A program made the translations under genes and the position numbers. The notes beneath the pieces were generated by a model. That model was not told where the DNA came from. It worked only from the letters and a program-made list of their open reading frames with translations, and made no database searches. From Bugula neritina (Eukaryota; Bryozoa; Gymnolaemata; Cheilostomatida; Bugulidae), in contig OZ037770.1 of the NCBI GenBank assembly GCA_964035545.1, positions 1,969,501 through 2,033,500 of the forward strand: a stretch of DNA of 64,000 nucleotides, written 5' to 3'. Shown here piece after piece: positions 32,738-62,292 of this stretch. The first letter of the stretch is position 1. The number at the start of each line of letters is the position of its first letter.

Positions 32738-32932
32738 TCAGTTTTCTTCTGCGTTTTCCGTATTCAAGAGTAGGAGTGCTTCGTCAAGTTCATTGAGATA
32801 TTTTGCTGCTACGGGTGCATACCTGTTCCAAAAGCCTACATTATCATAGTCTCTTCTAAACTCTTGCTTTACCTCACCAACTCGATTAAGTATCCTCTGT
32901 TTTAATTTTAGCTGCTCATCTAGCTGCCTTCC
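32738..32932 (-). CDS. Exon 24 (terminal), C-terminal cap
   Basis: 195 nt, phase 0, 64 residues then TGA. Acceptor GTATTTTAG. Starts as coiled coil ([14 protein letters not shown]) and changes to an aromatic-containing helical cap, [19 protein letters not shown], then an acidic end. Confidence 0.75.
   Translation of the reverse strand, partial: GRQLDEQLKLKQRILNRVGEVKQEFRRDYDNVGFWNRYAPVAAKYLNELDEALLLLNTENAEEN

Positions 32933-62292: not shown

Follow-up and report, generated by a model that had tools for sequence, protein, structure and literature searches.

Uniform 42-nt exons predicted to encode the coiled-coil rod of a probable atlastin/GBP-type GTPase gene pair in Bugula neritina

Introduction

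A run of twenty exons of exactly 42 nt, all in the same phase, raises the question of what kind of protein such an array would encode and whether its uniformity allows that protein to change length without losing its structure. The window, by which we mean the whole stretch of 64,000 nucleotides analysed here, comes from the bryozoan Bugula neritina (assembly GCA_964035545.1, contig OZ037770.1, positions 1,969,501 to 2,033,500). A preliminary description of this DNA had read the array as a gene at 32738..62292 in which each exon supplies two coiled-coil heptads, and had proposed that exons can be duplicated or skipped with frame and heptad register preserved. The parallel it drew was to collagen: fibrillar collagen, as an excerpt of PMC4450265 describes it, is a rod of fixed-length exons locked to a structural repeat, which has grown by whole exons.

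Results

Read on the minus strand from 62292 to 32738, the window contains a 172-nt exon, 20 segments that are each exactly 42 nt long, and a last exon of 195 nt. The 172-nt exon (62121..62292, minus strand) is entered with 2 nt of the previous exon, exits in phase 0, and ends in KELNEK. The units, whose types (a to q) were assigned by eye, follow on the same strand: exon 1 (59083..59124, type a), exon 2 (58751..58792, type b), exon 3 (53473..53514, type d), exon 4 (53241..53282, type e), exon 5 (52926..52967, type f), exon 6 (52751..52792, type g), exon 7 (52541..52582, type h), and exon 8 (52030..52071, type i). Block 1 then comprises exon 9 (51021..51062, type j), exon 10 (50682..50723, type k), exon 11 (49868..49909, type l), exon 12 (49513..49554, type m), exon 13 (48340..48381, type n), and exon 14 (43007..43048, type o), and block 2 comprises exon 15 (41978..42019, type j), exon 16 (38809..38850, type k), exon 17 (37678..37719, type l'), exon 18 (37541..37582, type m'), exon 19 (33963..34004, type n'), and exon 20 (33629..33670, type o). 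The last exon (32738..32932, minus strand) ends in NTENAEEN, followed by TGA. Two relics on the minus strand interrupt the series between exons 2 and 3. The c relic (56497..56530) has 34 nt compared with 42 in the sister gene described below, the 8 absent nucleotides being at the exon start; its splice sites still score well, and its inclusion would bring a stop at residue 106 of the joined model. The q relic (53696..53737) has AA where the sister has the acceptor AG.

Each of the 20 segments reads through in phase 0 and is flanked by AG and GT, and joining the 172-nt exon, the 20 units, and the last exon in order yields 401 residues in which the only stop is the terminal one. We infer from this arrangement that the exons are spliced together. 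The earlier observation of the exon run was partly confirmed: the 20 minus-strand exons with their own splice dinucleotides were all borne out in the sequence, as were the exons flanking them, whereas the upstream limit of the gene was not, as the gene likely continues past the window in the upstream direction and reaches C6:2059876 at least (C6 being the contig on which both genes lie). Elsewhere in the window, long plus-strand frames at 13908-19411 resemble, by eye, a Gypsy-type retroelement (protease, reverse transcriptase, integrase-like); two related minus-strand open frames at 2594-5347 and 9701-12115 (917 and 804 amino acids, alike by eye) had no Pfam match at E up to 0.001; and a tandem repeat on the plus strand at 63193-63648 has unit text like YELIYSISAP in its open frames.

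A generic splice rule was applied whose matrix was untrained on these exons, but which was itself chosen after the exons were known. This rule recovered 15 of the 20 units and, on the minus strand, no further open segment of 42 nt. The next-best segment length, with lengths of 24-75 nt tried, gave 4 segments, and no 42-nt segment was found on the plus strand. When the same rule was run on 60 first-order Markov sequences, the mean number of 42-nt segments was 0.85 and the maximum 3, and 30 first-order Markov sequences contained at most 5 segments at any length. A second scan, in which a matrix trained on the 20 units was applied at a single cut-off to 183,000 bases, including 5,000 that are masked, returned the 20 window units, 44 units in the sister gene, and 1 segment elsewhere. 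Based on the counts from both scans, the array is therefore not a chance pattern. The segment at 33130-33089 was rejected as a unit (acceptor -2.0, donor 0.8), though present in both copies, and none of 6 further open 42-nt stretches listed in the window gene was accepted.

The sister gene lies upstream of the window gene on the same contig and was modelled at C6:2172346-2082528 with 61 predicted exons, namely nine exons, then 51 of 42 nt, then a last exon, which together form one open frame of 1224 residues. Its 51 units consist of 44 found by score cut-off, 3 added by similarity, and 4 added by position in duplicated blocks; the last 4 were taken from 17 open 42-nt stretches and represent two types, each in the same place of the duplicated blocks, while the other 13 stretches were dropped. 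The last exon was found at two places in the 215.8-Mb genome, 32932-32738 in the window and C6:2082528-2082722, which are 91% alike, and the 172-nt exon was likewise found at two places. The C-terminus of the sister reads NTKDTEEN, corresponding to NTENAEEN of the window gene. Two of the sister's head introns, those after the 145-nt and 137-nt exons, are not phase 0; phase 0 throughout is therefore a property of the rod.

In the sister, residues 1-446 match the Pfam GBP family (PF02263) with 89.2 bits against a cut-off of 21.1 (E 3.2e-25), with no other Pfam match to the head besides a sub-threshold Septin, and the 146-residue piece after the GTPase domain matched no Pfam family. The match emerged only once the head exons were joined, as an exon-by-exon search of the genome with PF02263 listed no place on C6. 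Against PDB sequences, the head matched structures of atlastin-3 and atlastin-1 best (E 5e-24; PDB 6xjo, 3q5d) and GBPs more weakly. The model also contains GAMRSGKS, DIQG, and LIRD, which we take to be the P-loop, switch, and RD motifs of a dynamin-superfamily GTPase. Tested for an atlastin-family GTPase domain, the sister thus combines the motifs, PF02263, and matches to atlastin structures. The head had initially been considered a GBP, an idea that was replaced by an atlastin-like assignment after the sequence and structure matches favoured atlastin.

The closest database protein to the sister head, among 3 proteins returned, is B. neritina EB796_014659 (E 5e-97). Sister exons A to G are collinear with it over 382 columns (51% identity, Gaps = 2/382), and this collinearity gives independent support for the joins from A to G. 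EB796_014659 begins at residue 6 of the sister model, a Met, and ends before the rod. A structure model of this protein, built from a 4-sequence alignment with a mean pLDDT of 65, gave its best E-values in the PDB with human atlastin-3 and -1 (E 2.6e-17). It superposed on GTPase-only entries at 3.0-3.5 Å over ~300 columns and on full-length entries at 13-23 Å, the poor full-length fit arising because the helical part is placed differently or badly. In a test for a three-helix bundle, helices were seen at 263-373, with low confidence over 300-342. No transmembrane segment or hairpin was detected in the sister, where the highest 19-residue hydropathy after residue 300 was 0.20. A C-terminal CaaX box occurs in some GBPs; it is absent from both the sister and the window gene. 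Overall, the predicted product of the sister has a GTPase head of the atlastin/GBP type with a long rod behind it, and the tail in the window likely belongs to a GTPase gene of the same type, an affiliation that the preliminary description missed.

When the first 300 residues of the sister were used as a query, 54 exon-level matches were obtained at E up to 1 on contigs C5 to C9; 37 of these have E up to 0.001, and six are the sister's own exons. Given the 54 matches, the atlastin/GBP-like family is therefore expanded in this genome. The Pfam search also finds GTPase copies with internal stops on C174 and C190.

The predicted coiled coil was evaluated from the distribution of hydrophobic residues. 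In the 20 window units, I, L, V, M, or F occupies positions 1, 4, 8, and 11 in 43 of 80 cases and other positions in 19 of 200 (Fisher P 1.5e-14, a value that is too small because the units are related by duplication and not independent). Across the 71 units of both genes, which are related in the same way, the corresponding counts are 163/284 and 60/710, and this register is the best of seven, with 163 compared with at most 100 for the six alternatives. Charged residues at position 4 and prolines at any position are both absent from the 71 units, and for that reason the coiled-coil form seems to have been kept. The signature previously ascribed to every unit, Ile or Val first with Leu or Met at residue 4, proved overstated, being present in 13 of the 20 window units and absent from the rest (39/71 over both genes). 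Of the two heptads claimed for each exon, the second is weaker, with a hydrophobic residue at position 8 in 7/20 units and at position 11 in 6/20. Two heptads per 42-nt exon, with most of the core in the first, is a fair prediction, according to which each exon likely adds ~2 nm of coiled coil and the tail as a whole would be a coiled coil. At the textbook rise of 0.1485 nm per residue, rods of 20 and 51 units would measure ~42 and ~106 nm. Pfam searches with the joined tail plus the 172-nt exon returned 9 families, all below cut-off, and those with the 172-nt exon or the last exon alone returned no match. The 172-nt exon matched no PDB sequence, and a protein search for relatives with this exon plus the last exon produced 323 candidates, none at E up to 1.

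Comparison of unit order in the two genes indicates how the length of the rod has changed. The sister reads ab cqde cqde fghi jklmpl'm'no jkl'm'n' l'm'no fghi jklmpl'm'no jkl'm'n'o (51 units), and the window gene reads ab (c)(q)de fghi jklm-no jkl'm'n'o (20 units, relics in parentheses). The window gene carries a duplicated six-unit block whose matching pieces are 9.0 to 14.4 kb apart. At the junction 48817..48818 of the window, the sister has ~714 bp more, and this one clean intron-to-intron difference removes exactly three units from the window gene (p, l', and m', at C6:2122784, 2122640, and 2122502 in the sister). Since l' and m' also occur in other blocks, the difference is more simply explained by a deletion in the window gene than by a gain of sequence in the sister. 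The unit bookkeeping fits an ancestor of 25 units, from which the window gene would have lost five (c, q, and p-l'-m') and the sister, judged from unit order, would have gained 26, comprising cqde (4), a 19-unit run, and a net 3 where l'm'no replaces o.

With the exception of the c relic, the changes listed here involve complete units of 14 residues, so that frame and register are preserved. The proposal that rod length alters by exon duplication and loss has DNA support in the six-unit block, in the 51 and 20 units of the two genes, and in the ~714-bp difference; that register is kept on such changes follows from the uniform 14-residue length and phase 0. The interpretation offered in the preliminary description is therefore partly supported overall. 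Taken together, the sequences make it probable that the rod of this GTPase gene is spelled out by 42-nt exons, 20 here and 51 in the sister, and that it grows and shrinks by whole exons with its register kept.

Selection on the units was assessed from the 20 intact unit pairs of the window gene and the sister, with both relics left out of the gap count and of the unit dN/dS. No gap was present in 840 exon bases, compared with 54 in 4450 flank bases, a flank rate at which ~10 gaps would be expected in the exons; with the c relic included, there is 1 gap in 874 exon bases. Identity between the genes is 0.896 in exons and 0.901 in flanks, and dN/dS of the units is 0.67 between the sisters (P 0.11 for synonymous versus nonsynonymous) and 1.18 between the two blocks of the window gene. 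The 172-nt exon differs from its sister copy by 4 synonymous and 4 nonsynonymous changes (dN/dS 0.21). Residues changed between the sisters at 14/80 of positions 1, 4, 8, and 11 and at 41/200 of the others, and the core positions are not visibly better kept. Substitution in the units looks nearly neutral. Such a pattern would be expected under constraint on unit length and helical form but not on most residues, and a rod evolving largely neutrally would be compatible with it as well.

These values bear on the strongest competing explanation, in which the uniform length merely results from repeated tandem duplication of a single 42-nt ancestor exon, with copies that stayed in frame surviving, and rod length is unselected. 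Near-neutral substitution is what that explanation would lead one to see, and the 2.5-fold difference between the sister rods suggests weak constraint on length. The gap-free intact units, set against the many gaps in their flanks, and the consistent exclusion of proline and of charge at position 4 argue the other way, and we grant the by-product explanation a sizeable chance, if somewhat short of an even one.

A second alternative holds that the window gene is a decaying copy, with function retained by the sister alone. Of the window gene's head, two exons can be read (C6:2059876-2059748 and C6:2059545-2059409), and the 5 kb directly upstream of them (C6:2060001-2065000) are masked; no copy of the first six head exons (A to F) was seen in the readable stretch beyond the mask up to C6:2082400. 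Those unseen exons count toward decay, as do the lost acceptor of the q relic, the c relic with its 8 missing nucleotides and the early stop it would introduce, the three units absent relative to the sister, and the 137-nt head exon, which has 0 synonymous and 6 nonsynonymous changes. Opposed to them are the preserved frame and splice sites of all 20 remaining units, the 172-nt exon, and the last exon, and dN/dS values of 0.21 for the 172-nt exon, 0.24 for the exon at C6:2059748-2059876, and 0.45 for the last exon, all from small numbers of changes. The head may, moreover, be hidden by the mask. We consider decay of the window gene rather unlikely; the gene may also have a GTPase head, which would lie in the masked sequence. 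Masked blocks of exactly 5 kb occur at C6:2060001-2065000 and C6:1820001-1825000, each adjoining a family member.

A third alternative is that the array exists to produce many rod-length isoforms by exon skipping, in the manner of micro-exon genes. All units are short and symmetric (phase 0), so that any subset would keep the frame, and some sister units have weak sites, such as the GC donor of one similarity-added unit (C6:2131495) and the acceptor of the unit at C6:2130384 (score 1.5). Paired units share 90% DNA identity between the two genes and hence are not hypervariable. Skipping is an unlikely reason for the array.

The array was also sought elsewhere in the genome. With 12 units as a protein query, 7 of the 8 places at E up to 10 lay in the two genes, and the eighth was on C5 (E 3.2); the best E was only 0.41, and lone 14-residue exons elsewhere could therefore be missed. 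A 461-bp DNA piece with two units matched these two genes only, on C6, in a search in which only the best candidates were scored. In the more distant paralogue at C6:2308k, the coil lies in a longer open stretch, and 6.7 kb of sequence there contained no 42-nt run; masking covers 1820001-1825000 at the C6:1818k paralogue, and that at C6:2278k lay outside the comparison. Within this coverage, the 42-nt array seems to have originated with this gene pair. That it consists of chance splice-like segments or a repeat family mistaken for exons, as the TA repeats and mobile-element-like sequence in which this region of the window is rich might suggest, is highly improbable given the 15 units recovered by the generic rule over a null mean of 0.85, the restriction of both the DNA and the protein matches almost wholly to the two genes, and, at the DNA level, the open 61-exon frame of the sister.

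Discussion

The two genes combine features of several known systems. BmAtlastin-n of silkworm, a cytoplasmic protein of 770 residues with a reported antiviral role, resembles the sister in having an N-terminal atlastin/GBP GTPase and a coiled coil (in the sister by heptad pattern only) with no transmembrane segment; unlike in these genes, a uniform exon array is not mentioned in the excerpt of PMC4926086 on which this comparison draws. Atlastin-1 and -3 share the GTPase domain, and they are also the best fold matches of EB796_014659, but they possess a transmembrane hairpin that the sister lacks. GBP1, GBP2, and GBP5 share PF02263 with the sister, but match it more weakly than atlastin does, and the sister is without the CaaX box.

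With respect to gene structure, the likeness to fibrillar collagen lies in many one-phase exons that match a structural repeat, here 20 and 51 exons of 42 nt. Collagen differs in forming a triple helix from ancestral exons of 45 and 54 bp, according to the same excerpt of PMC4450265, whereas the exons described here are of 42 nt only and encode predicted alpha-helical heptads; Gly-X-Y repeats are absent from the unit sequences. Micro-exon genes of schistosomes likewise place many short exons between long introns, but, in the excerpt of PMC10526429, their exons are of 3-81 bp and encode secreted, variable proteins, as opposed to the single exon length and predicted GTPase found here. The preliminary description had named no coiled-coil gene with a 42-nt rule, and none was among the matches listed in a search of the literature in PubMed Central. 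We conclude that the product is likely a soluble atlastin-like GTPase with a repeat-locked exon array, for which collagen and the micro-exon genes offer the nearest known principles.

A mechanism consistent with these data can be proposed. Unequal recombination between the long, repeat-rich introns would move runs of whole cassettes, and because each cassette encodes 14 residues in phase 0, every product would be in frame and in register. The length of the rod would in this way be free to change while the GTPase head and the C-terminal end stay fixed. By analogy, the protein probably acts like the soluble coiled-coil atlastins, with nucleotide-driven dimerisation of the head and a rod that would set reach or spacing. 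Two mobile-element-like copies, at 39117-40842 and 60028-61773 of the window, lie in introns of the rod gene, ~20.9 kb apart and 94-97% alike; two frames in these copies had no Pfam match. Intronic repeats of this kind could have helped the unequal exchanges.

More tentatively, and with somewhat less than even confidence, the pair may represent a cassette-built molecular ruler, that is, a dynamin-superfamily GTPase whose rod length equals the count of two-heptad exons and is reset by intron recombination, perhaps also by skipping. If true, coiled coils would thereby have an equivalent of the fixed-length exons of collagen, encountered to date in this genome only. Coiled-coil rods set distances in cells, and the evolution of their length with register maintained has mostly been deduced from alignments. 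Here, the steps can be read in DNA, from two sisters, a 25-unit ancestor deduced from them, losses and gains of whole units, and one clean three-unit difference. The gene pair provides a natural series for the effect of rod length on a GTPase of the atlastin/GBP type, and it suggests that a coiled coil can become freely extendable through its exon structure alone.
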